Of a stretch of 32,135 nucleotides of DNA, positions 1,479 to 25,126 are shown piece by piece (the first letter of the stretch is position 1; each line of letters begins with the position of its first letter). The notes under the pieces are model-generated. The model was given only the letters and a program-made list of their open reading frames with translations. It made no database searches and was not told the DNA's origin. Source of the stretch: a virus. The DNA lies in IMG/VR virus record IMGVR_UViG_3300033149_002449, positions 1 through 32,135 of that record. One strand, given 5' to 3'. The position numbers and the translations under genes are program-made.

Positions 1479-1497
1479 GGAGTTAGGAAATAAACCT

Positions 1498-1632: not shown

Positions 1633-1702
1633 AAGTAGATTGGGTTTATGGTTAGGAGACGATTACTGGGAATTATACACAAGAAAAAAATTAGGTTTAT
1701 GA
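1604..1702 (+). CDS. Very small protein with TKKQKKNK leader (32 aa)
   Basis: A 32-residue frame starting METKKQKKNK and ending at TGA 1700-1702, which overlaps the ATG at 1699 as ATGA. The shared leader with the genes at 1699 and 1938, and the exact ATGA junction, are the reasons to accept it despite its length. The rest is Leu/Trp/Tyr-rich (LGLWLGDDYWELY). It overlaps the 44-residue frame upstream. It may be a real small peptide or a decayed copy of a leader-bearing gene. Confidence 0.4.
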   Translation: METKKQKKNKSRLGLWLGDDYWELYTRKKLGL

Positions 1703-1941
1703 CTAAAAAACAAAAGAAAAGATATAAAGACGAGGAATTTCTTGAATATACTATTAAAATTAGACGAGTAAGAAAGGTTTGGGGAAACAGATATTGTAAA
1801 GAGTATAAAGATAAATTCTATTTAGTTGAGATAAAACAACCCAGCGGACACGGAATTTCCTTTGCTGTTCCCATCAAAAGAAATATCGGGGCGGCACTTA
1901 GAAAAGTTTTTAGAGAAATTAAACATTATTTATGTCTATGA
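1699..1941 (+). CDS. Small basic unknown protein with TKKQKK leader
   Basis: 80 residues from ATG 1699. An upstream in-frame ATG exists at 1648, but 1699 is preferred because it makes an ATGA overlap with the preceding tiny frame and gives the MTKKQKK start shared with neighbours. The protein is strongly basic with beta-rich segments (YCKEYKDKFYLVEIKQP, about residues 33-49) and the segment HGISFAVPIKRNIGAALR, which resembles a small nucleic-acid-binding fold only in general composition. The stop overlaps the next start (ATGA at 1938). Confidence 0.6.
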   Translation: MTKKQKKRYKDEEFLEYTIKIRRVRKVWGNRYCKEYKDKFYLVEIKQPSGHGISFAVPIKRNIGAALRKVFREIKHYLCL

Positions 1942-1964
1942 CCAAAAAACAAAAGAAAAATAAA
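1938..1964 (+). repeat. Dispersed 27-bp repeat encoding MTKKQKKNK
   Basis: Second near-identical copy of the element at 586-612 (one substitution in 27 bases). Here it is the start of a gene, whereas at 586 it is the end of one. Confidence 0.7.
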
Positions 1965-2198
1965 TACGAAGAAGTAATGGAAGAAGTGACGTGCCAGGAG
2001 GAATCGTTGGGCAGGCCCGATGATGAGATATGTATAGAATGTGGTCGTGTTTTAAAAGATGATGATTTAGTAACAGAGACATCGTTTGGATTGGTTTGTA
2101 AAGATTGTGAATTATATTTTTTTGCTAAAAAAGATGAAGAAAGATGGACGGAATATGGAGATTTAAAAGAATATGAAGATTTAGAAGATGAATGGTAA
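1938..2198 (+). CDS. Small zinc-ribbon protein with acidic tail
   Basis: 86 residues from ATG 1938 (an ATG at 1932 is also in frame; 1938 gives an ATGA overlap with the preceding stop). After the basic TKKQKKNK leader comes a treble-clef or ribbon-like Cys pair arrangement: CIECG at about residues 32-36 and CKDC at about 53-56, spaced as in small zinc-binding proteins. The C-terminal 30 residues are strongly acidic (Glu/Asp-rich, ending LEDEW), so the molecule has a basic head and an acidic tail. Zinc binding is inferred from the four Cys. A DNA- or RNA-polymerase-associated role is possible but not shown. Confidence 0.6.
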   Translation: MTKKQKKNKYEEVMEEVTCQEESLGRPDDEICIECGRVLKDDDLVTETSFGLVCKDCELYFFAKKDEERWTEYGDLKEYEDLEDEW

Positions 2199-2212
2199 TT
2201 TGTTTAAATAGT

Positions 2213-2241
2213 TTTCGTTTCCCACGCTATCTTGCTATATA
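2213..2241 (+). promoter_or_regulatory. Candidate extended -10 promoter for the GC-rich block
   Basis: TGC followed by TATATA (2233-2241) matches an extended -10 element; the -35 position at 2213-2218 (TTTCGT) is poor. It stands in the 110-base gap between the AT-rich small genes and the zinc-ribbon gene at 2309. Support is moderate to weak. Confidence 0.3.
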
Positions 2242-2276
2242 TCTTTTTCTGGGTGCTTTTCAGGTTATTGGAATAA

Positions 2277-2296
2277 CAGCTCTTTACAGCTCTTTA
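2277..2296 (+). repeat. Tandem 10-bp direct repeat before a start codon
   Basis: CAGCTCTTTA occurs twice in perfect tandem, directly followed by the AAAGGAGG ribosome binding site of the gene at 2309. One helical turn per unit would suit an operator, but it may be simple chance or slippage. Confidence 0.5.
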
Positions 2297-2308
2297 AAGG
2301 AGGCAGGT

Positions 2309-2530
2309 ATGGCAATTCTGCGGATTGAAGTAAAGTGCCCAAAGTGCGGCGGTGAATTGGTAAAAATGATACCCAGAGATGGCAGTCCTATTTACTATGA
2401 TTGCCTTCAATGCGGGGCAGAGTGGGATTTGCTTTTCTACAAGGTAATCTTCGCACCATTTAACCGCAAGGGACTTTGGACGCCGACTTGGGAATATGCG
2501 AAGAAAGGAGGTGAGAGAAGTGAAAACTGA
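2309..2530 (+). CDS. Zinc-ribbon protein
   Basis: 73 residues from ATG 2309. The start is set by AAAGGAGG at 2296-2303, five bases upstream; the longer frame from 2192 would only add a hydrophobic translation of the intergenic gap. Two CxxC pairs, CPKCGG (residues 10-15) and CLQCGAEW (about residues 31-38), make a classic zinc ribbon, probably binding nucleic acid or a protein partner. Its last codons contain the Shine-Dalgarno sequence of the next gene, with an 11-base overlap, so the two are translationally coupled. The composition is GC-richer than in upstream genes. Confidence 0.7.
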   Translation: MAILRIEVKCPKCGGELVKMIPRDGSPIYYDCLQCGAEWDLLFYKVIFAPFNRKGLWTPTWEYAKKGGERSEN

Positions 2531-3431
2531 AAAGGCAATTCAAATTGCCACTCAATTGACGGAGAAATATGTTGTTTCTTTGCCAGAGGTTCAGCCTTTG
2601 AGCGTTCCAATTGAGTATGGCGACGGAGATGAAGAGGTGCAGGTGCTGATGTTGAGTGATTTCCAGATTGGGCATCAAACTCCATCGACAACAGCCCGAA
2701 TTATCCGCAATCGTGCCCGAAGATTAGCGGACAGGACAATCAAGCTGGCAACAATCCATCGTCAGGCCTATCCTATCCGAAGACTGGTGGTCTTTCTGGA
2801 AGGAGATGTGGTTCAAAACGACAGGATTGGTCGAGTGGTCAGCTTGGACGAGCTGGAAATGGTGGTAATGGACCAGGTGTTCGAGGTAGCAGTGCCTACT
2901 TTGAGCGAGATGCTTCTGACGTTTGCCCAACATTATGAGCAGGTAGATGTTTACACGGTAGACGGCAATCACGGCTCTTTGGGCAAATATGCGGCCATTA
3001 AGACCAACTGGGACACGGTAACCTATTTGGCAGTCGCTGGGCAGTTGAAGAACCAAAAGACAATTAAATTCCATATCGAAAGGAAGATGTTCTGGCAAAA
3101 AGTGAAAATCTGGAAGTGGTGCTTTCTTTTGGTTCACGGAGACCAGATACCGATGCACCTGACTCTTCCTTGGTATGGAATCACCACCAGGGCAATGCGT
3201 TGGCAGGGTTCTCTACCCGGCCCTCCGTTTCACTATATGTGTCTTGGACACTTTCACTTGGCCAGTTCGCTTGACTGGAACGATATGGAAATTTTTGTCA
3301 ACGGGGCTTTTGTCAGCGATGACCAATGGGTGCTAAAAAGGTTGGGACTTTCCAGTTCGACCGTTCAATGGACGTTTGGAGTTCACCCTCGCAAAGGGGT
3401 GACGTGGAGATACAAAGTCCGTCTGGATTAG
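2520..3431 (+). CDS. Calcineurin-like metallophosphoesterase
   Basis: 303 residues from GTG 2520; an ATG at 2496 is in frame, but AAAGGAGGTGA at 2504-2514 sits between the two and fits the GTG. All metallophosphoesterase metal-binding blocks are visible in order: SDFQIGH, GDVVQN, GNHG, VHGD and GHFH. Such enzymes cleave phosphodiesters with two metal ions; in phages the family includes SbcD/Mre11-like nucleases and unassigned phosphatases. No SbcC partner is present here. Hand counts give 53% and 50% GC in two 60-base samples of the gene, against 15% and 42% in samples from neighbouring regions, so it looks acquired. It is paired with the zinc-ribbon gene just upstream. Confidence 0.85.
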   Translation: MKTEKAIQIATQLTEKYVVSLPEVQPLSVPIEYGDGDEEVQVLMLSDFQIGHQTPSTTARIIRNRARRLADRTIKLATIHRQAYPIRRLVVFLEGDVVQNDRIGRVVSLDELEMVVMDQVFEVAVPTLSEMLLTFAQHYEQVDVYTVDGNHGSLGKYAAIKTNWDTVTYLAVAGQLKNQKTIKFHIERKMFWQKVKIWKWCFLLVHGDQIPMHLTLPWYGITTRAMRWQGSLPGPPFHYMCLGHFHLASSLDWNDMEIFVNGAFVSDDQWVLKRLGLSSSTVQWTFGVHPRKGVTWRYKVRLD

Positions 3432-3659: not shown

Positions 3660-4193
3660 ATGGAAGGAGAAAATGACCCGCCCTTACAGAGATTTATTGT
3701 TCGGGCATTTGCTACAACAATAATAGGATTATTTATTCCGTTATTATCCGGATTGACTCAAGAAGAAATGGATGTTTCTAACTGTTTTTTAGAAGTATGT
3801 AATGAAACGTTAGTTATGCAAGAGAATACATTTATAGCTACTTCTCCGGTTAATAATTTAGAAAAATTAGTTTCAATAGAGGATATAATTTTTTGTGAAT
3901 CAAGTGGTAATCCTAAGGCGTGTAATTTAGAATATGGTTGTATAGCCGGAATGGGATTAGTTGGTTTTATTCCGTCAACCTGGAACGAAACATTAGACAG
4001 AATGATAGAAGAAGAAGCTTATCTACCAGAAAAATGTAATGAAAAAATCTATTTGCCAGTTAGTGAAGAAAGAACAGAAGCGATATTTGATGCCGAATGT
4101 AATCTAATAGTTGGAAAGTGGTTGTTGGCCAAAGATGGAGATAGACATTGGCGGCCTTATAGCGGATATTGTTATTTGAATGGCAAGGACTAA
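3660..4193 (+). CDS. Lysozyme-like / lytic transglycosylase with N-terminal membrane anchor
   Basis: 177 residues. A hydrophobic segment at residues 12-33 looks like a signal or anchor sequence. The rest resembles the lysozyme-like SLT fold: a catalytic-type Glu in FCESSGNPKA (Glu80), a Gly-rich beta turn GMGLVGFIPSTWNE (97-110) and a C-terminal helix region NLIVGKWLL...HWRPYSGYC. Such enzymes cut peptidoglycan glycan strands, either as endolysin or as a virion-borne wall-boring enzyme. Eight Cys in the exported part suggest disulfides, unusual for a small phage lysin. It is the first gene behind the promoter at 3599. The family assignment is from motif shape only. Confidence 0.65.
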   Translation: MEGENDPPLQRFIVRAFATTIIGLFIPLLSGLTQEEMDVSNCFLEVCNETLVMQENTFIATSPVNNLEKLVSIEDIIFCESSGNPKACNLEYGCIAGMGLVGFIPSTWNETLDRMIEEEAYLPEKCNEKIYLPVSEERTEAIFDAECNLIVGKWLLAKDGDRHWRPYSGYCYLNGKD

Positions 4194-4560
4194 AAAACAA
4201 AAACTTTGTTCCGAAGCAGATAAGCTTTGGTCTATGGTTTGCTTGGAAAAATATGGAAGAAGATGTGAGGTTTGTGGGAATCAAGCAAATCAGGTTCATC
4301 ATTTTTTTCCGAAAGGCCAGTATAGTTTATTAAGATACGATTTAGATAATGGTATAGTTATTTGCCAGCGATGTCATTTTAAACATCACCAAGGCGACCC
4401 GACTATTCACCAGAAAATTATTGCTAAAAGAGGAATAAAGTGGTACAATCTTTTAGAGGAGAAGAGTAAAAAAAGAACAACAAGTTATAAAACGACCGCA
4501 TATTACGAAGAAAATATCAAGAGATTAAAAAATTTTTTGAAAAGGTCGATGAATAACTAA
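4180..4560 (+). CDS. HNH endonuclease, NinG/Rap-like
   Basis: 126 residues, overlapping the previous gene by 14 bases. A zinc-finger HNH arrangement is clear: CEVCG (about residues 28-32), HHFFPK (40-45), a central segment RYDLDNGIVICQRCH with the Asn and second CxxCH, then HHQGD. The ADKLWSMVCLEKYG helix before the first CxxC and the HH-x-FPK-x-LRYD order recall lambda NinG (Rap) recombination proteins, but a homing endonuclease cannot be excluded. It begins MARTKKQK, a variant of the leader seen in the small genes at the left of the window. Confidence 0.75.
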   Translation: MARTKKQKLCSEADKLWSMVCLEKYGRRCEVCGNQANQVHHFFPKGQYSLLRYDLDNGIVICQRCHFKHHQGDPTIHQKIIAKRGIKWYNLLEEKSKKRTTSYKTTAYYEENIKRLKNFLKRSMNN

Positions 4561-4564
4561 TTAA
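4544..4564 (+). repeat. 21-bp element, copy 1
   Basis: GGTCGATG, three variable bases, then AACTAATTAA. It matches 20815-20835 at 18 of 21 positions. Both copies straddle the end of one gene and the short gap before the next start. Possible regulatory site; could be chance in AT-rich DNA. Confidence 0.35.
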
Positions 4565-4580
4565 ATTTGTATTGTCAAAA

Positions 4581-5396
4581 ATGAACAGAGAAAAACTCAA
4601 AATAGGGATTGTAGGATATGGTTATGTTGGTAAAGCATTTTACAACTTCTTTAAAGACAAATACGAAACAAGAGTATATGACCCTGCTTATCCTGACCTA
4701 AACACAAAAGAAGAAGTCAATGAATGCTATTTAAGCATAATTTGTGTCCCGACCCCTATGGCAAAAGATGGTTCTTGTGACACTTCTATTGTAGAAGAAA
4801 GTATTAGGTGGCTTGAAACGCCACTTATTTTAGTTAAATCGACGATTAGTCCCGGAACGACAGAATATCTTAAAAAGAAATACAAGAAAAGAATTTGCTT
4901 TAGCCCAGAGTATTTGGGAGAGGGTAAGTATTCAGTTCCTTTTTGGAAATATCCTCACCCAACAGATGTGAAATGGCACAGTTTTATGATTATCGGTGGA
5001 GAAAGAGAAGACACTAATGAGATAATTGAGATATTTCAGACAATACTTGGTCCAGATTGTAGGTACTGGCAGACAAATTCAACCACAGCCGAATTGGTTA
5101 AGTATATGGAGAATGCTTGGGGAGCGATGAAAGTGACTTTTTGTAATGAATTTTATGAGATAGCGGAAACGCTTGGCGTTGATTACAGAGAATTAAGAGA
5201 GTTGTTTCTTTTAGACGGAAGGACAGAAAGGATACATACTGCTGTATTTAAGTATAATCGTGGATTTGGCGGGAAATGTTTTCCTAAAGACGTTAATGCT
5301 ATTGTTAAAGCAAGCGAGAAGGCGGGTTATGAGCCTAAACTCTTAAAAGAAGTGATAGATTCAAACAAACGATTTAGAGACAAAAAGGTCGATTAG
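4581..5396 (+). CDS. UDP-glucose/GDP-mannose dehydrogenase family, short form
   Basis: 271 residues from ATG 4581 (a TTG at 4572 is in frame). The N-terminal Rossmann domain has the NAD motif GYGYVG (about 12-17) and CVPTP. The central domain carries the conserved Lys/Asn helix LVKYMENAW and the catalytic Cys in GFGGKCFPKD (Cys233). Full-length relatives oxidise the C6 hydroxyl of nucleotide sugars to uronic acids and are about 400-450 residues. This one stops about 40 residues after the catalytic Cys, so the C-terminal nucleotide-sugar binding domain is missing. It may act with another subunit, on another substrate, or be a shortened viral version. It fits the glycan cluster downstream. Confidence 0.85.
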   Translation: MNREKLKIGIVGYGYVGKAFYNFFKDKYETRVYDPAYPDLNTKEEVNECYLSIICVPTPMAKDGSCDTSIVEESIRWLETPLILVKSTISPGTTEYLKKKYKKRICFSPEYLGEGKYSVPFWKYPHPTDVKWHSFMIIGGEREDTNEIIEIFQTILGPDCRYWQTNSTTAELVKYMENAWGAMKVTFCNEFYEIAETLGVDYRELRELFLLDGRTERIHTAVFKYNRGFGGKCFPKDVNAIVKASEKAGYEPKLLKEVIDSNKRFRDKKVD

Positions 5397-5413
5397 ATAA
5401 AACAGAAATAAAC

Positions 5414-5854
5414 ATGAAAGATATTAAAAGAATAGAGAGAGTTCTTAAAGAAGTTTTAGAAGAAAAAAAAGACAACCTTGTTAAATTAAGGATAGACTTG
5501 AATTATCGTCTTGAAATGGCTTCTCAATGGAAGAAAAAGTATGACGCATTGAAAGAAGAGCTTGAAAGGATAAGAAAAGATTTGAGCGTTCTTCAAATAA
5601 CAAAAGGACAATCGTCTAAAACCAAAGAAAAGATATTAAATCTTGAAAGTAGGGCAAGAGAAATAAACGAAGAATTGAGGAAATTAGAAAATAGCTTAAA
5701 TGAAGCACCTTTCATTGTGGATACACTTGTGAGAGCAAAAGAGTTTGTTGATTTAATCGATAAGGCAATTAAAAATCCTGAACGATTTTATAAAAGAACT
5801 AATGATTATATAGAAAAAGAGTATGTCAAAAAGAAAGGAAAAATTAACTCTTGA
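5414..5854 (+). CDS. Coiled-coil unknown protein
   Basis: 146 residues, almost entirely charged and helical. Heptad-like Leu/Ile spacing runs from about residue 5 to 105, interrupted by a Ser/Thr-rich turn near residue 60 (TKGQSSKTKEK), so it may form a long antiparallel hairpin. The C-terminal 40 residues are less regular (VDLIDKAIKNPERFYKR). No enzyme motif is visible. It could be a structural or scaffolding factor. It overlaps the next gene by 32 bases and sits between the sugar dehydrogenase and an HNH gene. Confidence 0.7.
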   Translation: MKDIKRIERVLKEVLEEKKDNLVKLRIDLNYRLEMASQWKKKYDALKEELERIRKDLSVLQITKGQSSKTKEKILNLESRAREINEELRKLENSLNEAPFIVDTLVRAKEFVDLIDKAIKNPERFYKRTNDYIEKEYVKKKGKINS

Positions 5855-6020
5855 ACAAGCGATTGAGAAAGCCAAGAAATGCGATGGTTATCTTGTGTTA
5901 ATAACCAGAAGAGAAGGTGAGAAACTATACCATAATACTTTTACTTTTAATTTTTTCAGAAACGATATTTTCCCAAGCTTGGAAGAGTTTGCTAAATTAC
6001 TTAAACCAGAAACAGAATGA
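5823..6020 (+). CDS. Small unknown protein (65 aa)
   Basis: Begins MSKRKEKLTLEQAIEKAKKCDGYLVLITRREGEKLYHNTFTFNFF: a basic helix followed by two or three beta strands, then a short C-terminal helix. Overlap of 32 bases with the coiled-coil gene. The fold pattern is that of many small phage accessory proteins; I cannot name the family. Confidence 0.6.
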   Translation: MSKRKEKLTLEQAIEKAKKCDGYLVLITRREGEKLYHNTFTFNFFRNDIFPSLEEFAKLLKPETE

Positions 6021-6036
6021 AGAATAAAAAGATGCT

Positions 6037-6042
6037 TATAAT
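6037..6042 (+). promoter_or_regulatory. TATAAT element directly before an HNH gene
   Basis: A perfect -10 hexamer six bases before ATG 6049, placing a start site at or within a base or two of the ATG, as in leaderless mRNAs. The same arrangement (TATAAT, six bases, ATGAAAAA) precedes the paralogous HNH gene at 12428 (TATAAT at 12416-12421). No good -35 is visible at either. Confidence 0.35.
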
Positions 6043-6048
6043 TAAATA

Positions 6049-6507
6049 ATGAAAAAGGATTGGGCAAAAAGAGATAAAAAAGGAAGGTTTGTTAAAGGTT
6101 CAGGTGGTTTTTGGAAAGGTAAAAAACTTCCTTACAGGAAAAAATTGAGCGAAATACACAAGGAATTAGTTAAAAAAGGCAAAAATGTCCCTCCATCAAG
6201 AAAAGGTATCTCGCCGGCAAATAAAGGAAAACCAAGATTGGATATAACTGGAGAAAAAAATCCTAATTGGAAAGGTGGGGTTTCGAAAAATCAAAGACCA
6301 GTAAGGAGTATAAGATATAAAAAATGGAGAATGGCGGTGTTTATGAGAGATGATTTTACTTGTCAGTTTTGTGGAATTAGAGGCGTTTATTTAGAAGCTC
6401 ATCATATTAAACCGTGGAGCAAATATCCAAAACTAAGGTTTGATGTTAATAATGGAGTAACATTATGTAGAAGATGTCACGATTTAACAAAAACGGGAAG
6501 AAAATAA
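6049..6507 (+). CDS. Homing endonuclease, NUMOD3-like repeat plus HNH
   Basis: 152 residues. The N-terminal half is Lys/Gly-rich with NUMOD3-like DNA-binding segments (KGSGGFWKGKKLP, RKGISPANKGKPR), then a linker GEKNPNWKGG. The C-terminal half is an HNH nuclease: CQFCG (about residues 102-106), AHHIKPWSKYP, NNGVTLCRRCH. This order is that of free-standing phage homing endonucleases, which cut DNA at a specific site and promote their own spread. It is paralogous to the gene at 12428, sharing RYKKWR/KYRKWR, EAHHIK and KYPKLRF. It overlaps the deacetylase gene by 34 bases. Confidence 0.85.
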   Translation: MKKDWAKRDKKGRFVKGSGGFWKGKKLPYRKKLSEIHKELVKKGKNVPPSRKGISPANKGKPRLDITGEKNPNWKGGVSKNQRPVRSIRYKKWRMAVFMRDDFTCQFCGIRGVYLEAHHIKPWSKYPKLRFDVNNGVTLCRRCHDLTKTGRK

Positions 6508-7178
6508 AAATTTTAAGTTCTTGGGACGATGGAAACCAATTAGATATGACATTAGCTGATTTGCTTTTAGAGTATAAGATACCCTCTATTTTTTATATCC
6601 CAGCTAATTGTGATTTAACAGAAGGACAGATTAGATGTCTTGCCGGCGTTGGTTCTTGTTCATTAAGCAAAAAAATGAAAGGGTTGTTTGAAATCGGGTC
6701 GCATTCTTTGTCGCATCCTGAAGATTTGAAGAAATTAGACGATAGGAAATTAACAGAAGAAATTGCGGGTTCAAAAGTTTATTTAGAACAAATTATTGAA
6801 ATGCCAGTCACGAAATTTTGTTACCCATCTGGGAGATATGATGATAGAGTAAAAGAAAAAGTTAAGTTGGCAGGGTTTAAAGAAGCGAGAACGGTTGATG
6901 TCTTAAACATAAAGTTTCCTAAAGACCCGTTTATGACAAAACCTACTATTCATGTTTACCCAGAAAGAAAAGAATACGGCGATAAAACTTGGATTGATTA
7001 TGCTCACCAGCTTTTTGATAAAGTAATAGAAGAAGGGGGAAGATTTGAATTATGGGGTCATAGCTATGAAATAGAACTTTATAACCAATGGGAGTTTTTA
7101 GAGGATTTTCTGTGGTATATGGACAAGAGAATGAAAGAAATTAACTATCCGAGATTATGCCAAAAAAAATCAAAATAA
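6474..7178 (+). CDS. Polysaccharide deacetylase (NodB homology)
   Basis: 234 residues. Carbohydrate esterase 4 motifs are visible: SWDDG (residues 16-20, the catalytic and metal Asp), GSHSLSHPE (about 74-82, the metal-binding His pair), FCYPSGRYD (about 118-126) and a C-terminal WGHSYE (about 195-200) in the position of the last catalytic His. Relatives remove N- or O-acetyl groups from peptidoglycan, chitin-like or capsule sugars. There is no signal peptide, so it would act on a cytoplasmic precursor, or be released by lysis or carried by the virion. It overlaps the HNH gene before it by 34 bases and the next gene by 22. Confidence 0.85.
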   Translation: MSRFNKNGKKIKILSSWDDGNQLDMTLADLLLEYKIPSIFYIPANCDLTEGQIRCLAGVGSCSLSKKMKGLFEIGSHSLSHPEDLKKLDDRKLTEEIAGSKVYLEQIIEMPVTKFCYPSGRYDDRVKEKVKLAGFKEARTVDVLNIKFPKDPFMTKPTIHVYPERKEYGDKTWIDYAHQLFDKVIEEGGRFELWGHSYEIELYNQWEFLEDFLWYMDKRMKEINYPRLCQKKSK

Positions 7179-7429
7179 ATAAGTGGGATATAGTAGAAAT
7201 AGAATGGCTTGATTCTGTTGTAACAAATCGCCCAATTTGGTGTCTAAACTCCTTGGTTAATTGGAATATGATAGAAAATAGTTCTTTACACAAAACGGTT
7301 GGATACCTAATTAGAGAAACAGATGTTTTTATTAGTGTTTGTCAATCAAGGCGGGAAACAGATGACCAAATTGGAATGCTAATGACTATTCCGAAGAAGG
7401 CGATAATTAAAGTAAGAAAACTGAAATGA
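7157..7429 (+). CDS. Small unknown phage protein (90 aa)
   Basis: The protein is beta-rich with the pattern KWDIVEIEWLDS, then VGYLIRETDVFISVCQS, then MTIPKKAIIKVRKL at the C-terminus. I have seen this general pattern (x-VGYL-x-E-T ... IPK-x-x-I) in many small phage proteins of unknown role, probably a compact beta barrel. It lies between the deacetylase (22-base overlap) and a small membrane protein (ATGA overlap). No catalytic residues are evident. Confidence 0.65.
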   Translation: MPKKIKINKWDIVEIEWLDSVVTNRPIWCLNSLVNWNMIENSSLHKTVGYLIRETDVFISVCQSRRETDDQIGMLMTIPKKAIIKVRKLK

Positions 7430-7608
7430 TTTTTGAGATTATAGCTATTGCTTTATTTATAATAATGTTGATTGGAATAGAGAAAAAAAACTGGAAAAGT
7501 TGGGGTTCAATGATAATTGTGGTTTTCGCTTTAGTTCTTGCTTCTCGAGTTGGATATTTCCTATTCAAAATTGTTAAATGGTTTTTAGCAGGCGGGTCAT
7601 TTGAGTAA
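7426..7608 (+). CDS. Small two-helix membrane protein
   Basis: 60 residues. Residues 2-17 (IFEIIAIALFIIMLIG) and about 28-51 (GSMIIVVFALVLASRVGYFLF) are hydrophobic and long enough to span a membrane, with a Lys/Trp-rich turn between. It overlaps both neighbours (ATGA upstream, TAATG downstream). Size and topology would allow a holin acting with the lysozyme-like protein at 3660, but its position beside a glycosyltransferase equally allows a membrane partner of glycan assembly. Confidence 0.6.
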   Translation: MIFEIIAIALFIIMLIGIEKKNWKSWGSMIIVVFALVLASRVGYFLFKIVKWFLAGGSFE

Positions 7609-8471
7609 TGAAAATTTATATTCCGCAAAGAGCTAAATATGGAATTGGTGGTGGGTGGACTTTTACGAGAAATATACAAAAAGCATTGGGTGGTAAGGTT
7701 CAGTTTGTTAATTCTTTAGAAGATTGTGATATTTATTTTATTCCCGGTTCTACGCTTGCCGAAAGAAATGAAGTCAAAAAAGTAAAAGGTTTAAAAAAGA
7801 AAATTGTTCTGCGAATTGATAATGTACCTCGAAATAGCAGAAACCGAAATACAGGAACATTCCGTTTATATGATTATTCTCAATTAGCAGATGAAGTTAT
7901 TTATCAATCAGAATGGGCAAGGCGATGGATTTATCCGTTCATTAAAAGAGAAGGAGTAATAATTTTAAATGGCACAGATGAAACAATTTTTAAACCAGAA
8001 GGGCCGAAGATACCAAAAGAAGGAAACCCTCAGTATCTTTATTCCAGATATAATCGAGATGAAACAAAAAGATGGGAAAGAGCTTGGTATGATTTCCAAA
8101 AGATTTATTATGAAAACCCAGAAGCCCATTTATGGATAGTTGGAAGATTTAGTCCAGAACAAGAAAAGTATCATTTTGATTTTTTTGGCGGGGCCGAAAA
8201 AAGATATAGATATTTTGGGGTAGTTAAAAGCCCAGAAGAAATGGCAATGATTTATAGGGGAGCCGATTATCTGCTTTACACTTATGAAATGGACGCTTGT
8301 AGTAATGTTTTGGTAGAAGCAATTATGTGTGGAATGAAAATTATTTTAAGAACTGATGGTATGGGTAGTGCGTGGGAAATTATGAAAGCACCTAAAGAAC
8401 AATTAACGTTAAAATTTATGGGAGAGAGATATTTAGAAGTCTTTAATAAAGTATTAAAATATGAGCAATAA
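7608..8471 (+). CDS. GT4-type glycosyltransferase
   Basis: 287 residues, shorter than the usual 350-400 for GT-B enzymes. The N-terminal part has a Gly-rich loop YGIGGGWTF (about residues 11-19). The C-terminal Rossmann domain has LWIVGRF, a strand-loop YRYFGVVKSPEEMAMIYRGA and the donor-binding motif EMDACSNVLVEAIMCGMKII, the counterpart of the E-x7-E region of GT4 enzymes. It should transfer a sugar from a nucleotide-sugar donor with retained anomeric configuration. Acceptor unknown. The shortening is mostly in the N-terminal acceptor domain. Confidence 0.8.
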   Translation: MKIYIPQRAKYGIGGGWTFTRNIQKALGGKVQFVNSLEDCDIYFIPGSTLAERNEVKKVKGLKKKIVLRIDNVPRNSRNRNTGTFRLYDYSQLADEVIYQSEWARRWIYPFIKREGVIILNGTDETIFKPEGPKIPKEGNPQYLYSRYNRDETKRWERAWYDFQKIYYENPEAHLWIVGRFSPEQEKYHFDFFGGAEKRYRYFGVVKSPEEMAMIYRGADYLLYTYEMDACSNVLVEAIMCGMKIILRTDGMGSAWEIMKAPKEQLTLKFMGERYLEVFNKVLKYEQ

Positions 8472-8667
8472 AATTAAAAAAGACCCAACTTTAGCTGGTA
8501 TCCTTTCGTTTCTTATCCCGGGATTAGGGCAAATATATGCGGGAAATGCAATTAAAGGAATTTTATTTTTCATTGCTACCTTTGGGGGTATGTTTTTAAT
8601 TATTCCGGGAATTGTATTTTGGATAATTAGTATTTTTGATGCTGTTAGCGAGGCAAAAAAAGGCTAA
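8461..8667 (+). CDS. TM2-like small membrane protein
   Basis: 68 residues with two hydrophobic segments, LAGILSFLIPGLGQIYAG (about 11-28) and GILFFIATFGGMFLIIPGIV (about 33-52). The SFLIPGLGQIYAG-x-x-x-KG pattern is typical of TM2/DUF5683-type proteins found across bacteria. Their role is poorly known. It overlaps the glycosyltransferase stop by 11 bases. A host-derived origin is plausible because the motif is more common in cellular genomes than in phages. Confidence 0.65.
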   Translation: MSNKIKKDPTLAGILSFLIPGLGQIYAGNAIKGILFFIATFGGMFLIIPGIVFWIISIFDAVSEAKKG

Positions 8668-8670
8668 AAT

Positions 8671-9237
8671 ATGGCATCTTTTACCAGAATTCAATTGGAA
8701 AAATGGCTGAAGACAATTGATGTAAAAGCGGAAAGAGTACTTGATATTGGCGGTTCTCAATTACCGGTCAAAGGCAGAACTAAATCTTGGGAAGTTGAGA
8801 TTTATAACATATTAGATTTACCCGAACCCCATGAGACAAAAAAAGAACCAGATATTCTGATGGATATTCAAGATGAAGAACCAATGCTTGAAGCTGGGCC
8901 CGGATATGATATTGTATTTTGTCTTGAGGTTGCGGAGTATTGGTATAATCCGCTTCAAGCATTAAAAAATATCGGTTATTTCCTTAAAGAAGGTGGAATT
9001 TTGTATATTTCGTTTCACTTCATTTATGGAATACATCGTCCTGTTGGGACTGATTTTTTAAGATATACCCCAGAAGGAGTAGAAGAATTACTTAAAAGAA
9101 CTGAATTTGAGATTTTAGAGCATAAGTATAGAATTGGAAATGGAATTGAAGAAATGTATCAACGGAATCAGATGAGAGTTAGAAAAGATATCCCTCAAAA
9201 TGTGATTGGTTCACTTATTACAGCAAAAAAGGTTTAA
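8671..9237 (+). CDS. SAM-dependent methyltransferase (class I)
   Basis: 188 residues. Motif I is VLDIGGSQLPV (about residues 24-34), an acidic segment EPDILMDIQDEE follows, then IVFCLEVAEYWYNPLQALKN (the usual hE-H position of Methyltransf_11 reads AEYW here) and FLKEGGILYISFHF. Relatives methylate sugars, lipids or small molecules; the setting suggests a sugar O-methyltransferase capping a glycan. The N-terminus is short and begins with a helix. It starts three bases after the preceding stop. Confidence 0.75.
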   Translation: MASFTRIQLEKWLKTIDVKAERVLDIGGSQLPVKGRTKSWEVEIYNILDLPEPHETKKEPDILMDIQDEEPMLEAGPGYDIVFCLEVAEYWYNPLQALKNIGYFLKEGGILYISFHFIYGIHRPVGTDFLRYTPEGVEELLKRTEFEILEHKYRIGNGIEEMYQRNQMRVRKDIPQNVIGSLITAKKV

Positions 9238-9248
9238 TATACTAAATT

Positions 9249-9803
9249 ATGCTTAAGTTAAATCTTGGCGGAGGTCCCAAAATAATACCGGGTTTTGTAA
9301 ATGTAGATGCTTTAGATTGGAATGGAATAACAGAAGTTGTCCTTGATTTGACTAAAATTCCTTATCCTTGGAAAGATGAGAGTGCAGAAGAGATTGTTGC
9401 TCAAGAAGTATTAGAACACATCAGTTTTAAAAAGACCTTAAAAGTTCTTAAAGAATGGTATCGAATTTTAAAAAAGGGCGGTAAATTAACGATTCAAGTT
9501 CCAGATATAGGCAAGATGTGTGAGTACTATGTTAATGGTCAGGTTTGTGGTTGCGTTCCTCGCAAAGCAAAGAGAATAGAAGATTTTAAAGCGAACCCAG
9601 ATTGTTGGATATGTGGGGGTAAGGCAAAAATAAATACGACTCGTTGGATTTATGCTTTCACGGGGGCCCAGAAACATAGTTATGATTATCATCGAAATGT
9701 TTTTACTAAAGAGATTTTAAAGATAAATTTAATAAAAGCAGGTTTTCAAAAGATTCAATGGAAGGACAACATTTATAAACTTATTGCGATTTGCTACAAA
9801 TAA
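9249..9803 (+). CDS. SAM-dependent methyltransferase with a Cys-rich insertion
   Basis: 184 residues. Motif I LNLGGGPKIIPGFVNVD (about 4-20), a conserved AQEVLEHISF (about 55-64), then WYRILKKGGKLTIQVPDI. Between the VPD strand and the last helices is an unusual insertion with CGC (about 98-100) and CWICGG (about 117-122), likely one zinc site, before AFTGAQKHSYDYH. Similar methyltransferases act on glycan or lipid-linked sugars. The stop at 9803 is one base before the ATG of the intein-bearing gene. Confidence 0.75.
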   Translation: MLKLNLGGGPKIIPGFVNVDALDWNGITEVVLDLTKIPYPWKDESAEEIVAQEVLEHISFKKTLKVLKEWYRILKKGGKLTIQVPDIGKMCEYYVNGQVCGCVPRKAKRIEDFKANPDCWICGGKAKINTTRWIYAFTGAQKHSYDYHRNVFTKEILKINLIKAGFQKIQWKDNIYKLIAICYK

Positions 9804-9804
9804 T

Positions 9805-12396
9805 ATGAAACTTTTAATTGTATCAGTTAAACCGGGGTCGGCGATTGATAGATTATCATTATCAATCGCTAAATATAACGAGCATTTATGTCCAACAGTT
9901 TTGCCAGTTCACCCTAAGAGACCCGGATTAGACGTCTTGAAAAGATTTGAAGAATTAGCCAGAGAAGCGGACTTGATACATTTCCAGTATTGGAAGAGTG
10001 CGGTAATGCTTTTAAAAAGATATGCTTTTTTACAAAGTAAACCCAAAATTCTTACTCATCATAATCCTTATGATTTACATCAGAGAGATTGGAGAGAATT
10101 TAATGCGGTAGTTGTGAATAACCTGACACAACAAAGAGAACTGCCGGGGTCAATTTATATTCCTTTATCAGTTGATTTAGATTTCTTTCAGTTCAATGAA
10201 AATTATTGTCCTAATAAAGATTGTAATGCCTGTTTACATAGATGTAAGACGGTTGGAATGGTAGCCGCAAGAATAGAAGGAAAAAAAGGAATAAGAGAAG
10301 TAGCTCAAGCGTGTGCTGATTTGGGCTATCGTTTTCTTTTAGTAGGGAGAGTTTCAAGACCTGCCTATATGAAACAGATATTAGATATAGGAGTTGAATT
10401 CAAAGAAGACGTTACAGATGAAGAATTGAGGAATTTATATAAAAGAATGACGGTTTTGGTTTGTAACTCGGTGGATAATTTTGAATGTTATGATGATAAA
10501 ACGGAAGTTCTAACTGAAGATGGATGGAAAAAAATTAAAGATGTAAAAAATGAAAAAGTTGCGACTCTCAATCCGCAGAGCAATTATTTAGAATTTCAGA
10601 AACCAATTAGAAAAATGGTTTATGATTATAAAGGTGTTCTTTATTCTGTTGACAATAGAAGTTTAAGTTTTGCTGTGACGCCAAATCATAAGATGTGGGT
10701 TTCTACAAGAACTACTGACAAGAATAGAAAAGCAATATACAAGCCATACAGATTTGTTGAGGCAAAGGACTTGCCCCAGTCTTTTAAGATACAAAGAACC
10801 TGTAAATGGAAAGGGAATAGATATAAAGAAGGCAGTATAGATTGGTATAGATTTATGGGGATTTGGTTAGCAGAAGGAAGTGTTTATAGACAAAGTAAAA
10901 ATAGTTGTAGAATTACTATATCGGCGGTGAAGAAAGAAGAAAAAAAGAAAATAAGAGGGCTTTTGACAAAAATGGGATTTGATTTTCAAGAGATAAAAGA
11001 TGGTTTTAGATTTAGCGAAAGACAAAACAAGGGATATAGATATAAGTTTGGAAGATATCTTGAGCAATTTGGGAAAGCACCAGAAAAATTTGTTCCGAAA
11101 GAAATTCTTAATGCGAGGCCAAAGTATATAAACGAATTCCTTGAATGGTTTAGTTATGGAGATGGAATGAAATATAATGGAAACAGGATTTTTTTTACAA
11201 GTTCAGAAAAGTTGGCAGATGGGATACAAGAATGTTTATTGAAAATAGGCAAGAATGTTTATATTTCTAAAAGGAAAAGAAAAAAGAAGCGATGGATTGT
11301 TGACCACTGGGCAAATACTAATGAAATAGAATATGTTATTTATGAAAAGTCTAAAAAGTTGGAAAGTTATGTCAGAAAAAATCTTGATTTGAAAAAAATT
11401 AAGTATAACGGAAAGGTTTATTGTTTAGAAGTGCCTAATCATATTTTGCTTGTTAGAAGAAATAAGAAAACAATGTTTTGCGGAAATTCAGGAACTTTGC
11501 CAATTCTTGAAGCAATGGCTATGGGGGTGCCGGTTCTTACTCGAAATGTTGGACACGTTCCAGATATTTATAACGAGAAGAATATGGTAGTAAGGTCAGG
11601 CAAGACAGAAGATTTGGAAGATTTAAAAAATGAATTAAAAGCATTGATGGATAACAGAAAGAGAATGTTAGAATTAAGAGAGGAAGGTTGGAAAACGGTA
11701 AAAGATTTTTCAGATGCTAAAATGGCCCGTCGATATGCCAGATTATATAATAAAGTTCTTTTCGAAGAACCATTGGTTTCAGTAATTATTCCAACTTATA
11801 ATAGAAAGAAACAAGTACTTGAGATTTTAGAAGCATTAGATGAACAAAATTATCAAAACATAGAAGCGATTATAGCTGATGATAACTCCGTTGATGGAAC
11901 AGAATCGGCAGTAAAATCAATGCGAGAGAAGGTAAGATACCCGATTAAGTATTTAAATACAAATCGGGATGGATACAATTTAGCAATGGCAAGAAATATG
12001 GCAGTGATTGAGGCGGATGGAGAAGCAATAGTTTTTTGTGATAGCAGATTAAAACCATACGAGGATGCTATTTATCAATTTGCCAAAAGAGTTTTAAGGG
12101 ACAAAGAAAAAGTTTGGTATTTTGGAAATAAGGGAAGCGGCAAGAGGAGTTTCGTTGAAAACTTTAGTGCTGTCAGGAGAAGCTATCTTATTCGAGCAGG
12201 TATGTTTAACGAAAGAATTACAGAATGGGGCGGAACTACACAAGAGATTTCTACGAGGTTTAAAAGTCAAGGGTTTAAGTTTAGATACTTGCCATTCGCT
12301 CGGGCTAAAGAAATCCTTTCGTCAAAATCAAAATATAGAAAAAAAGAATCTCTTTGGAAAATGAAGTTTCTATTATGGAAGCTTTATGGGATTTGA
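9805..12396 (+). CDS. GT4-GT2 fused glycosyltransferase interrupted by an intein
   Basis: 863 residues before splicing, from ATG 9805; a TTG at 9784 would overlap the previous gene. Residues 1-227 are the N-terminal part of a GT4 enzyme, including VGMVAARIEGKKG and NSVDNFE. An intein occupies 228-561. The frame then resumes with SGTLPILEAMAMGVPV, completing the E-x7-E donor motif, so the spliced protein would be 529 residues. From about residue 656 a GT2 domain begins: VSVIIPTYNRKKQVLEI, IIADDNSVDGTESA, ARNMAV and FCDSRL, where the second Asp of the usual DxD is replaced. The product is therefore a two-domain enzyme probably adding two sugars in sequence. Without splicing the GT4 half should be inactive. 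Confidence 0.9.
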   Translation: MKLLIVSVKPGSAIDRLSLSIAKYNEHLCPTVLPVHPKRPGLDVLKRFEELAREADLIHFQYWKSAVMLLKRYAFLQSKPKILTHHNPYDLHQRDWREFNAVVVNNLTQQRELPGSIYIPLSVDLDFFQFNENYCPNKDCNACLHRCKTVGMVAARIEGKKGIREVAQACADLGYRFLLVGRVSRPAYMKQILDIGVEFKEDVTDEELRNLYKRMTVLVCNSVDNFECYDDKTEVLTEDGWKKIKDVKNEKVATLNPQSNYLEFQKPIRKMVYDYKGVLYSVDNRSLSFAVTPNHKMWVSTRTTDKNRKAIYKPYRFVEAKDLPQSFKIQRTCKWKGNRYKEGSIDWYRFMGIWLAEGSVYRQSKNSCRITISAVKKEEKKKIRGLLTKMGFDFQEIKDGFRFSERQNKGYRYKFGRYLEQFGKAPEKFVPKEILNARPKYINEFLEWFSYGDGMKYNGNRIFFTSSEKLADGIQECLLKIGKNVYISKRKRKKKRWIVDHWANTNEIEYVIYEKSKKLESYVRKNLDLKKIKYNGKVYCLEVPNHILLVRRNKKTMFCGNSGTLPILEAMAMGVPVLTRNVGHVPDIYNEKNMVVRSGKTEDLEDLKNELKALMDNRKRMLELREEGWKTVKDFSDAKMARRYARLYNKVLFEEPLVSVIIPTYNRKKQVLEILEALDEQNYQNIEAIIADDNSVDGTESAVKSMREKVRYPIKYLNTNRDGYNLAMARNMAVIEADGEAIVFCDSRLKPYEDAIYQFAKRVLRDKEKVWYFGNKGSGKRSFVENFSAVRRSYLIRAGMFNERITEWGGTTQEISTRFKSQGFKFRYLPFARAKEILSSKSKYRKKESLWKMKFLLWKLYGI
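10486..11487 (+). mobile_element. LAGLIDADG homing-endonuclease intein
   Basis: 334 codons in frame. Block A starts at Cys1 (CYDDKTEVLTEDGWKKI). Block B is FAVTPNHKMW with the TPNH at 65-68. The two LAGLIDADG helices are FMGIWLAEGS (about 123-132, Glu130) and FLEWFSYGDG (218-227, Asp226). Block F is VYCLEVPNHILLV (about 311-323) and block G ends FCGN, followed by Ser as +1 residue of the C-extein. All steps of standard class 1 splicing therefore have candidate residues, except that the usual penultimate His is Gly333. The join leaves NSVDNFE-SGTLPILEAMA, a normal GT4 motif. Confidence 0.9.
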
Positions 12397-12415
12397 TAGG
12401 TATGGTGGGATATAT

Positions 12416-12421
12416 TATAAT
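12416..12421 (+). promoter_or_regulatory. TATAAT element before the second NUMOD3-HNH gene
   Basis: Perfect -10 hexamer six bases before ATG 12428, the same spacing and almost the same surrounding sequence as at 6037-6049, implying the upstream DNA travelled with the endonuclease gene. Confidence 0.35.
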
Positions 12422-12427
12422 TAGATA

Positions 12428-13054
12428 ATGAAAAAAGGAACACATCATACAAAAGAAACTAAAGAAAAATTAAGAGAAATCAATTTAGGAAAACGTCATT
12501 CTGAGATAACGAAGTTGAAAATAAGTAAGTTAATGAAGGGTAGGAAAATTACTTGGGCTAATAAGATAAGTAGGGCACTTAAAGGAAGGAAATTATCCGA
12601 AGAGCATAAAAGAAAGCTGAGTGAGTCTCATAGGGGCTATAAAATGCCCGAAGACACGAAAAAGAAGATTAGTAAAGCAAACAAAGGGCGTCGTCTTCCC
12701 GAATGGCAAAAGAGATTAATAAGTATAGCACAGAAAACCAGAAAACATAAACCTACCGAAGGATTCAAAAAAGGGAGAGAACATCCAAATTGGAAGGGTG
12801 GGATTACTCCAAAAAATAATGAAATAAGAAATTCACCTAAGTATAGAAAATGGAGGCAAAATGTTTTAAGGCGAGATAATTATACTTGCCAAAAATGCGG
12901 ATTGAAAGGTGGATGGAATAGAGAATTAAAAAGAAGAATTGTATTAGAGGCACATCATATCAAATCTTTTGCTAAATATCCTAAATTGAGATTTGTGATT
13001 AGAAATGGTATAACATTATGCCGAAATTGTCATCGCAAGATGTATGGTAAATAA
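12428..13054 (+). CDS. Homing endonuclease, NUMOD3 repeats plus HNH
   Basis: 208 residues. The N-terminal part has at least four NUMOD3-type repeats (ETKEKLREINLGKRHSE, LKISKLMKGRKIT, EHKRKLSESHRGYKMPE, DTKKKISKANKGRRLPE), which wrap target DNA in related enzymes. After a GREHPNWKGGIT linker comes the HNH domain: CQKCG (about 156-160), EAHHIKSFAKYPKLRF and NGITLCRNCH. It is a longer relative of the gene at 6049. It lies just after the intein-bearing gene, so two kinds of homing endonuclease gather around one glycosyltransferase. The stop overlaps the next gene by 11 bases. Confidence 0.85.
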   Translation: MKKGTHHTKETKEKLREINLGKRHSEITKLKISKLMKGRKITWANKISRALKGRKLSEEHKRKLSESHRGYKMPEDTKKKISKANKGRRLPEWQKRLISIAQKTRKHKPTEGFKKGREHPNWKGGITPKNNEIRNSPKYRKWRQNVLRRDNYTCQKCGLKGGWNRELKRRIVLEAHHIKSFAKYPKLRFVIRNGITLCRNCHRKMYGK

Positions 13055-13328
13055 AGAAATTTTAGATAACATTGACCGATATGCTGATAAACGAAGAACT
13101 ATTTGCGAGGTTATTAGAGAGATTTATGATTTGACTTTTGCTGTTAATGACGAAACGGTTAGAGAAGAAATAAGGGTTAGATTAAAAACTGTTTACGAAA
13201 TGGCTAAAAAAATGGATAGAAAATTACATGAATATAAATTTGATTGGGATAAGGATTTTTGGGAAATTAACAAAGATTATAAAAAAGACCTTGAAAGAAG
13301 GTCAAAAAGAAAACAAAATGCGACTTGA
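13044..13328 (+). CDS. Small unknown helical protein
   Basis: 94 residues, mostly helical: IDRYADKRRTICEVIREIYDL (about 10-30), ETVREEIRVRLKTVYEMAKKMDRKLHEYK, then a Trp/Tyr/Asp-rich tail DWDKDFWEINKDYKKDLERR. The tail has a repeated W/F-D/E-x-N-x-D-Y flavour. I have a faint sense of similar small proteins next to phage methyltransferase genes but cannot name the family. Overlaps at both ends (11 bases each). Confidence 0.65.
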   Translation: MVNKEILDNIDRYADKRRTICEVIREIYDLTFAVNDETVREEIRVRLKTVYEMAKKMDRKLHEYKFDWDKDFWEINKDYKKDLERRSKRKQNAT

Positions 13329-14172
13329 TATTGGTTGTGGTAAAAATCCTCGCCAGGGATACATAGGGATTGACAAAGAAGATTATGGACAAGAAATCAT
13401 AAGAGATATTGAGAAAGAATGTTTACCTTTTTCTGATAGCACAATAGACGAAATTTTTTGTCAACATGTTTTAGAGCATCTTGATGACCCAATGTTTGTT
13501 ATTGATGAATTTTGGCGAGTTTTAAAACCTCACGGAAAAGCTTGGATAATAGTTCCTCACAAAGACAATATCAAAGCATATGCTTTAAGACATAAAAGAT
13601 ATTTCAATGAGTATACTTTTGATGCTTTAGAAACTGATGCTGTAAAAAGAAAATGGAAGATATTAGAGAAGAATATCAATGACAGACCAGATATTCACAT
13701 TAAGTTACAACCAGTAAAAGAAAAAGTTATTAAAAGATTGCCAAATGAATTAGATATTGGTTGTGGAAGAGCAAAAGATAGAAATGCTATTGGGATTGAT
13801 TGGGAAGATTATGGACAAGAGATAGTTTGGGACATTACAAAAGGACTGCCTTTTTCTGATGATACTTTCACGAGAGTAAAAGCCCATAGTGTTTTAGAGC
13901 ATTTATCTTCTTATGATTTGCTTTATGTGATGCGAGAATGTCATCGGGTTTTGAAAAAAGATGGAATTTTAGATATTGTTGTTCCAATCGCAGGAACAGA
14001 TACGTCTTTTAGAGACCCAACTCATCAAAGCTTTTTTACTGAAAATACTTTTAGTTATTTTACCAAAGTGAAACCAACATATTATGATATTAACCCAGGG
14101 CATAAATTTGAAATAGTGAAAGCAGAAGAAAAAGGAGTGGTAATTTATGCTCAATTAAGACCGATAAAATGA
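13318..14172 (+). CDS. Tandem-domain SAM-dependent methyltransferase
   Basis: 284 residues from ATG 13318; longer frames upstream would overlap the previous gene heavily. Two class I methyltransferase domains are joined head to tail: LDIGCGKNPRQGYIGID...EDYGQEIIRDI (about 3-31) with QHVLEHLDDP, and LDIGCGRAKDRNAIGID...EDYGQEIVWDI (about 144-171) with AHSVLEHLSS. The first copy is the more compact and lacks some C-terminal elements seen in the second (THQSFFTENTFSYF). An internal duplication is evident from the shared EDYGQEI. Probable sugar or lipid methyltransferase; whether both halves bind SAM is open. ATGA overlap with the next gene. Confidence 0.8.
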   Translation: MRLDIGCGKNPRQGYIGIDKEDYGQEIIRDIEKECLPFSDSTIDEIFCQHVLEHLDDPMFVIDEFWRVLKPHGKAWIIVPHKDNIKAYALRHKRYFNEYTFDALETDAVKRKWKILEKNINDRPDIHIKLQPVKEKVIKRLPNELDIGCGRAKDRNAIGIDWEDYGQEIVWDITKGLPFSDDTFTRVKAHSVLEHLSSYDLLYVMRECHRVLKKDGILDIVVPIAGTDTSFRDPTHQSFFTENTFSYFTKVKPTYYDINPGHKFEIVKAEEKGVVIYAQLRPIK

Positions 14173-15215
14173 TAAAAGAAGAATTTTTAAGAAAATGGGG
14201 CAAGATTAAAGTTTTCAGCTTGCCTTGGCATACAAGCCACCAGTATGAGTTATTGAAATTACCATTTGAATGGCATTATCTTATTCAGCACGTTCGTAAA
14301 TGGGGACATCAAGCCAGGCCAATGCCGAAACATTTAAAATGGGTTGCTTATTATGAACCCGGCAAATATGATTTTGCTCTTTTACATATTGACCAGCAAT
14401 GTCTTTCACCAAAAATTGCTTATGGTAAAACAATGCTTTTTAGAGAAGTAAGAGGACAAATCAAAGATATTCCTATTATTGTGATTAACCACGGAACGCC
14501 GGTTTATCCTGAGGTTTTTCCCCAAAAAGCAGAAGAAGATGGTATGGAACCAACAGAAGAAAACGGGATTAAATGGGCCAGACAAAAAATGAAAGAAGCA
14601 TTAGAAGGAGTTGCTGAAATGGTTGTCAATTCTTATGAAGCCGTCGAGATGTGGGGTTGGGGACACCCGATTATTCACGGACTTGACAAAGAAGAATGGT
14701 GGGACTTACCAAAAGAACCAAGAGTGGTTACTTTCATTTCTCCGGCAGGAATAGGAGATAAGTATTATGGTAGGCGTCTTTTTCACGATACAAGAACAAT
14801 TTTAAAAGAGAAATATGGAATTGAACTTGTTTGGATAGGAACAGATAAGTATTGTAAAGATTGGGACGATTATAGAGATTTCTTGGGCCGTTCACTTGTT
14901 TATTTTAATCCTACTTTTGGCTCGCCAATGCCAAGAACAAGGACAGAAGCAATGTTTAGTGGTTGTTGCGTTGTTACGACAAAGCATCAAGGAGCGGATA
15001 GGTTTATTAAAAATGGAATTAATGGCTGGATTTGTAAAGACAATCCTGAACATTCAGCCAAGTTAATTGCCAATATGATTTTTGACTATAAAAAAGCAGT
15101 TCAAATAGGTCAAAAAGGTCGTGAAACTGCAATTAAGGTTTTTAATGGTGAAAGATTTAGAGAAGATTGGTTAACTCTTGTTGATAAAGTATTAGAAAAA
15201 TGGAAAAAGAAATGA
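14169..15215 (+). CDS. GT4-like glycosyltransferase
   Basis: 348 residues. The N-terminal domain reads KVFSLPWHTSHQYELLKLP, then VINHGTP and MVVNSYEAVE, the usual GT-B acceptor domain followed by the linker. The C-terminal domain has VVTFISPAGIGDK, LVWIGTD and the donor motif region FGSPMPRTRTEAMFSGCCVV, ending INGWI and a C-terminal helix. It should use a nucleotide-sugar donor. The gene is coupled to its neighbours by overlaps on both sides. Acceptor unknown. Confidence 0.8.
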   Translation: MIKEEFLRKWGKIKVFSLPWHTSHQYELLKLPFEWHYLIQHVRKWGHQARPMPKHLKWVAYYEPGKYDFALLHIDQQCLSPKIAYGKTMLFREVRGQIKDIPIIVINHGTPVYPEVFPQKAEEDGMEPTEENGIKWARQKMKEALEGVAEMVVNSYEAVEMWGWGHPIIHGLDKEEWWDLPKEPRVVTFISPAGIGDKYYGRRLFHDTRTILKEKYGIELVWIGTDKYCKDWDDYRDFLGRSLVYFNPTFGSPMPRTRTEAMFSGCCVVTTKHQGADRFIKNGINGWICKDNPEHSAKLIANMIFDYKKAVQIGQKGRETAIKVFNGERFREDWLTLVDKVLEKWKKK

Positions 15216-16063
15216 AAAAGAAAGTTGGAATTTTGCTTTTTGAACAATGGCACGGAAGAGAAAATGTTGGTAGTTCACGAATTAGAGGGCATTGGCTTAT
15301 TAAGTATTGGCCAGAGGCAGAGGTTTTTCAACAAGGCGGAAAGTATGATGTTGTTATTTTTCAGAAATGTTATTGGCCGGAATATGTTAGAGCGTTTAAT
15401 GGTATAAAAATTTTTGATTTATGTGACCCTGATTGGCTTGATACTTTACCAATCAAAGAAGTAATTGATTATTGTGATGCGGTTACTACTTCTACTGAAG
15501 CTTTACGAGATGAAGTTCAAAAGTTTACAGACAAACCAGTTATATTTATTCCTGACAGACAGGATTTAGAATTTCACAACAAACAAAAAGTTCACAAAGG
15601 AAGAGCTAAGAAAGTTTGTTGGTATGGATATTCTCATAATGCTAAAGTTTTAGATAAAGCCATTTGGTCAATTAAAAGTTTTGGATTAGAACTTGTTGTT
15701 ATTTCAAATTTGAGGCCATTTTATCAAAAAGCAGACAAGAATATAAAATGGGAGTTAGAAACAATAAATGATGAGATATTGAAATGTGATTTTGTAGTTA
15801 TGCCTCCGGACACAAGGCCGAGAGGAAGATTTAAAAGTAACAACAAGATTACTAAAGCTTGGGCCTTAGGAATGCCGGTAGCAACAAACATAGAAGAACT
15901 TAAAAGATTTTTAGACCCAGAAGAAAGAAAAAAAGAAGCAAAGAAAAGATTGAAAGAAGTAAAAGAAAAATATGACGTCCGGTTAAGTGTTAAAGAATTT
16001 AAAGACTTAATCAACCAAATAAGTTATGGAAATAAAAGAAGGAAAAGTAATTCTTTACGCTGA
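15212..16063 (+). CDS. GT4-like glycosyltransferase, short
   Basis: 283 residues from ATG 15212, chosen because it forms an ATGA overlap with the previous stop; ATG 15200 is also in frame. N-terminal GT-B features: VGILLFEQWHGRENVGSSRIRG (residues 4-25), YDVVIFQK, IFDLCDPDWLD. C-terminal part: KVCWYGYSHNAK, a donor-site loop MPPDTRPRGRFKSNNK and ALGMPVATN. The conserved Glu pair is not obvious, so the donor site may be non-standard. The last 35 codons overlap the next gene by 38 bases. Confidence 0.7.
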   Translation: MKKKVGILLFEQWHGRENVGSSRIRGHWLIKYWPEAEVFQQGGKYDVVIFQKCYWPEYVRAFNGIKIFDLCDPDWLDTLPIKEVIDYCDAVTTSTEALRDEVQKFTDKPVIFIPDRQDLEFHNKQKVHKGRAKKVCWYGYSHNAKVLDKAIWSIKSFGLELVVISNLRPFYQKADKNIKWELETINDEILKCDFVVMPPDTRPRGRFKSNNKITKAWALGMPVATNIEELKRFLDPEERKKEAKKRLKEVKEKYDVRLSVKEFKDLINQISYGNKRRKSNSLR

Positions 16064-25125: not shown

Positions 25126-25126
25126 A

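Follow-up and report, generated by a model that had tools for sequence, protein, structure and literature searches.

A homing-type intein in the donor-binding motif of a viral GT4-GT2 glycosyltransferase and a related intein two codons away in a distant homologue

What interrupts a viral glycosyltransferase gene within the motif that binds its donor sugar, and how did it come to lie there? The window (the whole stretch of DNA analysed, a record of 32,135 bases) contains terminase, portal, prohead and HK97-type capsid genes, which identifies it as part of a tailed virus. GT4-type and GT2-type glycosyltransferase domains share one frame in ORF 9784/9805-12396. This frame is interrupted between the codons for NFE and SGTLPILEAMA by an insert that starts with CYDDKTEVLT and stops with MFCGN (CYDDKTEVLTEDGW...VYCLEVPNHILLVRRNKKTMFCGN, then S+1; Table 1). 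We hold with high confidence that the insert is a class-1-type, selfish, splice-competent LAGLIDADG homing intein that directly follows the first Glu of the GT4 E-x7-E motif. That confidence derives from the insertion itself, the empty site in homologues, the catalytic residues, the fold and the discordance between intein and host trees. IMG/VR contig 3300033150_000600 (49.7 kb) is 100% identical at this locus throughout the 13 kb compared, and as effectively the same virus it provides no independent evidence.

Table 1. Features of the interrupted glycosyltransferase gene and the adjoining gene (window coordinates).
Feature	Position	Strand	Remarks
Precursor gene: GT4-GT2 fusion glycosyltransferase with intein	9805..12396	+	863 aa from ATG 9805; open frame from TTG 9784
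N-extein, 227 aa: GT4 N-terminal region to first Glu of E-x7-E (codon 10483-10485)	9805..10485	+	
Intein, 334 aa, C1 to N334	10486..11487	+	Sequence, family alignment, fold
Block A, CYDDKTEVLTEDG	10486..10524	+	C1 in 53/53 family members
Block B, TPNH	10678..10689	+	T65 in 50/53, H68 in 53/53
First LAGLIDADG helix, WYRFMGIWLAEGSV	10837..10884	+	Acid E130 (E or D in 51/53)
Second LAGLIDADG helix, EFLEWFSYGDG	11119..11169	+	Acid D226 (D in 49/53); Pfam LAGLIDADG_3 (PF14528), E 4e-8
Block F, GKVYCLEVPNHILLVRRN	11410..11463	+	C313 (F:4), H319 (F:13)
Block G, TMFCGN	11470..11487	+	Penultimate Gly333, not His; terminal Asn334
C-extein, 302 aa: S+1, GTLPILEAMA, remaining GT4, then GT2	11488..12393	+	Second Glu of E-x7-E at 11509-11511
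GT2 domain	11779..12114	+	Pfam Glycos_transf_2, residues 325-436 of spliced protein
Free-standing NUMOD3/HNH endonuclease gene, adjoining the interrupted gene	12428..13054	+	Missing there in syntenic L053 and L054

Once the intein is removed, the GT4 match runs unbroken over the joint, and the Pfam Glycos_transf_1 (PF00534) score is 59.6 bits against 42.2 for the interrupted protein (cut-off 26.4). The product after splicing, computed from ATG 9805, has 529 aa and is a GT4 enzyme with a Glycos_transf_1 domain and an E-x7-E motif, of which both E227 and E235 (spliced enzyme numbering) are conserved in an 18-row alignment. The first Glu, which has a role in donor-sugar binding in GT4 enzymes and here lies just before the joint, is invariant. 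A profile of the host GT4 retrieved PimA, BshA and other solved GT4 enzymes from the PDB.

The empty site is seen in two viruses with the same gene order, L053 (contig 3300014911_000010) and L054 (contig 3300033156_000341). Both encode the same GT4-GT2 enzyme, 68-69% identical to the spliced protein, but contain neither the intein nor, at this place, the HNH gene that comes after the enzyme gene in the window. The protein joint reads VDNFE-SGPLVVLEAMA in L053 and VDNFE-CGTMPILEAMA in L054. The corresponding DNA (joint marked by a slash) is gttgataattttgaa/tctggacct in L053 and gttgataattttgaa/tgtggcaca in L054, compared with gtggataattttgaa/intein/tcaggaact in the window. The DNA of both viruses therefore runs through the joint and the insertion is exact. 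Among the other glycosyltransferase homologues collected, every full-length match was without an insert at the joint, with the exception of L049 (see below). The dN of the window exteins is 0.26 against L053 and 0.25 against L054, equal to that of the intein-free pair (L053 against L054, 0.26), so the host enzyme is under normal constraint without decay. This argues for splicing of the intein, and exteins conserved in this way suggest production of the spliced enzyme. A sequence-only reading of this DNA had proposed a 334-codon intein at 10486-11487, reducing 863 to 529 aa, with blocks A, B, F and G and two LAGLIDADG helices, inside the GT4 E-x7-E motif, and had suggested aligning intein-free relatives to the spliced join. 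Its coordinates are exact, the blocks and helices agree with residues, family alignment and fold, and the invariant Glu fixes the placement; L053 and L054 run straight through the join.

The insert has an N-terminal Cys, a block B TxxH and a C-terminal Asn followed by Ser at +1, as in class 1 inteins, and is an in-frame addition missing from continuously aligning homologues. The penultimate His is replaced by Gly333; class 1 membership stands without it, since this residue is usual but non-defining. Two LAGLIDADG helices with one acid each (E130, D226) are those expected in sequence of an active endonuclease. An AlphaFold model built on a 53-member alignment (pLDDT 93.7, pTM 0.92) predicts a Hint fold with an inserted endonuclease domain. 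In a fold search of the PDB, the first 16 places went to inteins carrying homing endonucleases (best 7qsu, E 1.2e-17). The top matches were the TliVMA and PhoVMA inteins, then PI-PfuI and PI-SceI; I-DmoI endonucleases came after the inteins. TliVMA (7qsu), PI-PfuI (1dq3) and PI-SceI (1vde) share the Hint plus two-motif LAGLIDADG fold with the window intein, but at 9-17% identity and in archaeal or yeast hosts. This fold search was decisive; a PDB sequence search with the intein alone returned only antibody chains with E > 0.01, which are chance matches. Class 3 inteins lack an N-terminal nucleophile and have Trp at B:12, Cys at F:4 and Thr at G:5. This class, considered because of Cys F:4, was ruled out, as C1 is present, B:12 is M and G:5 is C, leaving Cys F:4 as the sole shared feature. 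Rfam found no group I or group II introns in the window, L053, L054 or L049, so RNA splicing is no alternative at these loci; a tRNA search found none.

Sequence searches matched the insert across its full length to phage inteins. Those of thymidylate synthase, ribonucleotide reductase, NAMPT, DNA methylase, nucleotidyltransferase and terminase have the same architecture (full-length tblastn, 22-30% identity) and include inteins of Staphylococcus, Salmonella, Mycobacterium and Prevotella Lak phages. Dozens of inteins align with the insert from one end to the other, and its predicted fold matches intein-endonucleases, so the insert is not a chance feature. In the family alignment (A3; window:10486-11487 plus 52 loci, n=53), C1, D3, H68, G131 and N334 are present in all members and T65 in 50, and the acids of both LAGLIDADG helices are kept in nearly all. 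The penultimate residue is Gly in 51/53, and F:4 is Cys in 42/53, the second commonest state at this position among known inteins (PMC4031507). This lineage also has a near-constant C-terminal signature, VRRNGK-x-x-x-GN. Against the curated splicing models, the window intein alone falls under the cut-off (PF14890, 18.7/35.8 bits; TIGR01445, 17.2/24.5 bits) and is for that reason likely to be missed by annotation pipelines; of 54 relatives, whose complete interrupted proteins were scanned, 14 reached PF14890 at E <=0.001. These sub-threshold scores and the missing penultimate His would also fit a splicing-dead intein or a permanent Hint/endonuclease domain, leaving the gene broken or yielding two separate polypeptides. 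We regard this as highly unlikely, given that no nucleophile is missing, that the block B His is kept, that both exteins are as conserved as in the intein-free sisters and that L053 and L054 do without the insert. Moreover, almost every member of this family has the penultimate Gly, and among functional inteins about 5% are without the penultimate His, some of them splicing well (PMC4031507). If they splice, these Gly-bearing inteins are a good source of unusual splicing chemistry.

Splicing, DNA cleavage and the effect on the enzyme are what we infer for this splice-competent homing intein. C1 would form the thioester, aided by T65 and H68, and S+1 would take over the N-extein. N334 would then cyclise without the usual penultimate His, with H319 (F:13) and the CGN end serving instead. 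This would release a 334-aa endonuclease and leave an enzyme of 529 aa. In co-infecting viruses the endonuclease would cut alleles of the gene that lack the intein, and repair would then copy the intein in. Such a selfish element would be retained because the motif at its site is indispensable to the enzyme.

A related intein was found in L049 (IMGVR_UViG_3300025698_001531, 4,045 bases; gene at 750-3314). It lies in the same E-x7-E region of an enzyme of the same GT4-GT2 family and has the same MFCGN C-terminus. However, it occupies the site ESG/TLPLLHAMA rather than E/SGTLPILEAMA, two codons (6 bp) downstream, with Thr instead of Ser at +1. The L049 enzyme has His (ESGTLPLLHAMA) where E-x7-E has its second Glu, which sets it apart from its intein-free relatives L066 and L064. 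The two inteins are 57% identical, whereas their glycosyltransferases share only 36%, and they are each other's closest known relatives, all others being about 41% identical or less. The intein tree places them as sisters (SH-aLRT 100). The glycosyltransferase tree, by contrast, groups the window with L053 and L054 (99/97) and L049 with the intein-free L066 and L172 (100/99). Intein-free members occur in both of these clades, and a tree joining the two interrupted glycosyltransferases is rejected (p-AU 5.7e-6). Inteins that are more alike than their hosts, together with discordant trees, point to horizontal homing between genes of this one family with a small shift of target. There is a close precedent in actinophage methylases, where an intein moved horizontally between divergent phage alleles (PMC9957025). 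Junction-pattern scans of IMG/VR contigs for this C-terminal signature found only the window's sister record and L049 at the two sites, the remaining matches being unrelated frames.

The two-codon offset is not explained by simple allelic homing. Either the element slid along the motif from the Ser to the Thr nucleophile, or there were two invasions by related elements. The second alternative, in which related endonucleases entered a conserved motif separately, is a serious possibility, although we lean away from it. The +1 residue differs (S, T), the sites are 6 bp apart, the hosts fall in separate clades, and the intein family as a whole uses many insertion sites. However, unrelated invasions would hardly give a fully supported sister pair of inteins 57% identical to each other, with no other known intein above about 41%. 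On the preferred reading, of one element shifting its target, the pair is a compact case of an intein that crossed distant alleles of one enzyme and settled two codons away. It makes drift between homing endonuclease target and splice site a testable question.

The host gene is the second novel aspect. By Pfam, the host genes of the 54 relatives are dominated by terminases, portal and Mu F proteins, ThyX, DNA methylases, DNA polymerase, ribonucleotide reductases and NAMPT. Similarly, the hosts of the phage inteins matched above serve nucleic-acid metabolism or packaging, with no glycosyltransferase among the 80 matches listed. A mycobacteriophage survey reported terminase, RecB, RDF, nucleotidyltransferase, methylase, primase, portal, thymidylate synthase and helicase as hosts, again with no glycosyltransferase (PMC5050341). 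In the literature searched, which gave partial coverage and in which most papers pairing inteins with glycosyltransferases dealt with biotechnology, no natural intein in a glycosyltransferase was found; an earlier mention is possible. The sequence-only reading had called such a host unusual, which holds as far as this literature goes, but the window is not unique. Three of the 54 relatives match glycosyltransferase Pfam models: L049, L081 (site IGYQG/SATHYAD) and L144 (site IAWLM/SDPWAFH). When spliced, L081 and L144 align gap-free at the joint to the intein-free phage glycosyltransferases MW202801 and PP395641. The L144 element (L144:5001-5672), a mini-intein of 224 aa, interrupts the N-terminal domain of a phage glycosyltransferase and gives no LAGLIDADG match in Pfam. 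Counting the window, viral glycosyltransferases thus carry at least four insertions at four different sites, which makes them a recurrent, if minor, class of host. Further hosts outside nucleic-acid metabolism are L112 and L098: inteins of the same family interrupt a nucleotide-sugar epimerase in L112:3403-5598 (site LGTMGEYG/TPN) and a class-III aminotransferase in L098:4533-6851 (site VVC/SGFHGWHDW). Carbohydrate-modifying enzymes therefore join the genes invaded by viral inteins. When bacterial and archaeal genomes were searched for the spliced enzyme, only an unrelated portal-like frame came up, and no cellular donor or host was found. Elements of this kind are well known; what is new is the host gene, together with the shifted pair.

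The position of the intein had also led to the proposal that splicing acts as a switch. Conditional splicing (responding to redox, temperature or infection stage) would turn the glycosyltransferase on at the right time, and the intein would be domesticated, with glycan modification released at one stage. With its donor-binding motif split, the precursor is very probably inactive, and that the unspliced enzyme is inactive is a fair inference. A disulfide among C1, C313 and C332 is conceivable, and conditional splicing is known in other inteins (PMC7765530). However, intein-free orthologues in closely related viruses of the same gene order indicate that the enzyme works without the intein, and C1 and Cys F:4 are common to the whole intein family, whatever the host gene. 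Insertion in active-site motifs is likewise general: inteins prefer conserved sites (PMC2814812), and insertion beside conserved motifs was a theme of the mycobacteriophage survey (PMC5050341). No feature here points to conditional splicing, and we give the switch very little credence. Were it true, inteins in several viral glycan genes would reflect selection and not parasitism alone.

Dense glycan gene clusters flank the head genes of the window (4572-16063 and 23935-29931) and contain several GT1/GT4 and GT2 enzymes, SAM methyltransferases, a polysaccharide deacetylase and a UDP-sugar dehydrogenase. The UDP-glucose/GDP-mannose dehydrogenase at 4572-5396 has only 274 aa and seems to be without its N-terminus, as its Pfam NAD-binding match starts from profile position 69. 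An HNH gene (3967-4596) divides the methyltransferase gene of L053 (3673-5023), whose counterpart in the window (8671-9237) is intact; Rfam found no intron at the split gene. In the window, the HNH gene next to the interrupted glycosyltransferase is 41% identical over 156 residues to a further HNH gene at 6049-6507. The former is a second mobile element, separate from the intein, and its absence at this place in L053 and L054 indicates that the locus took up two unrelated homing-type elements.
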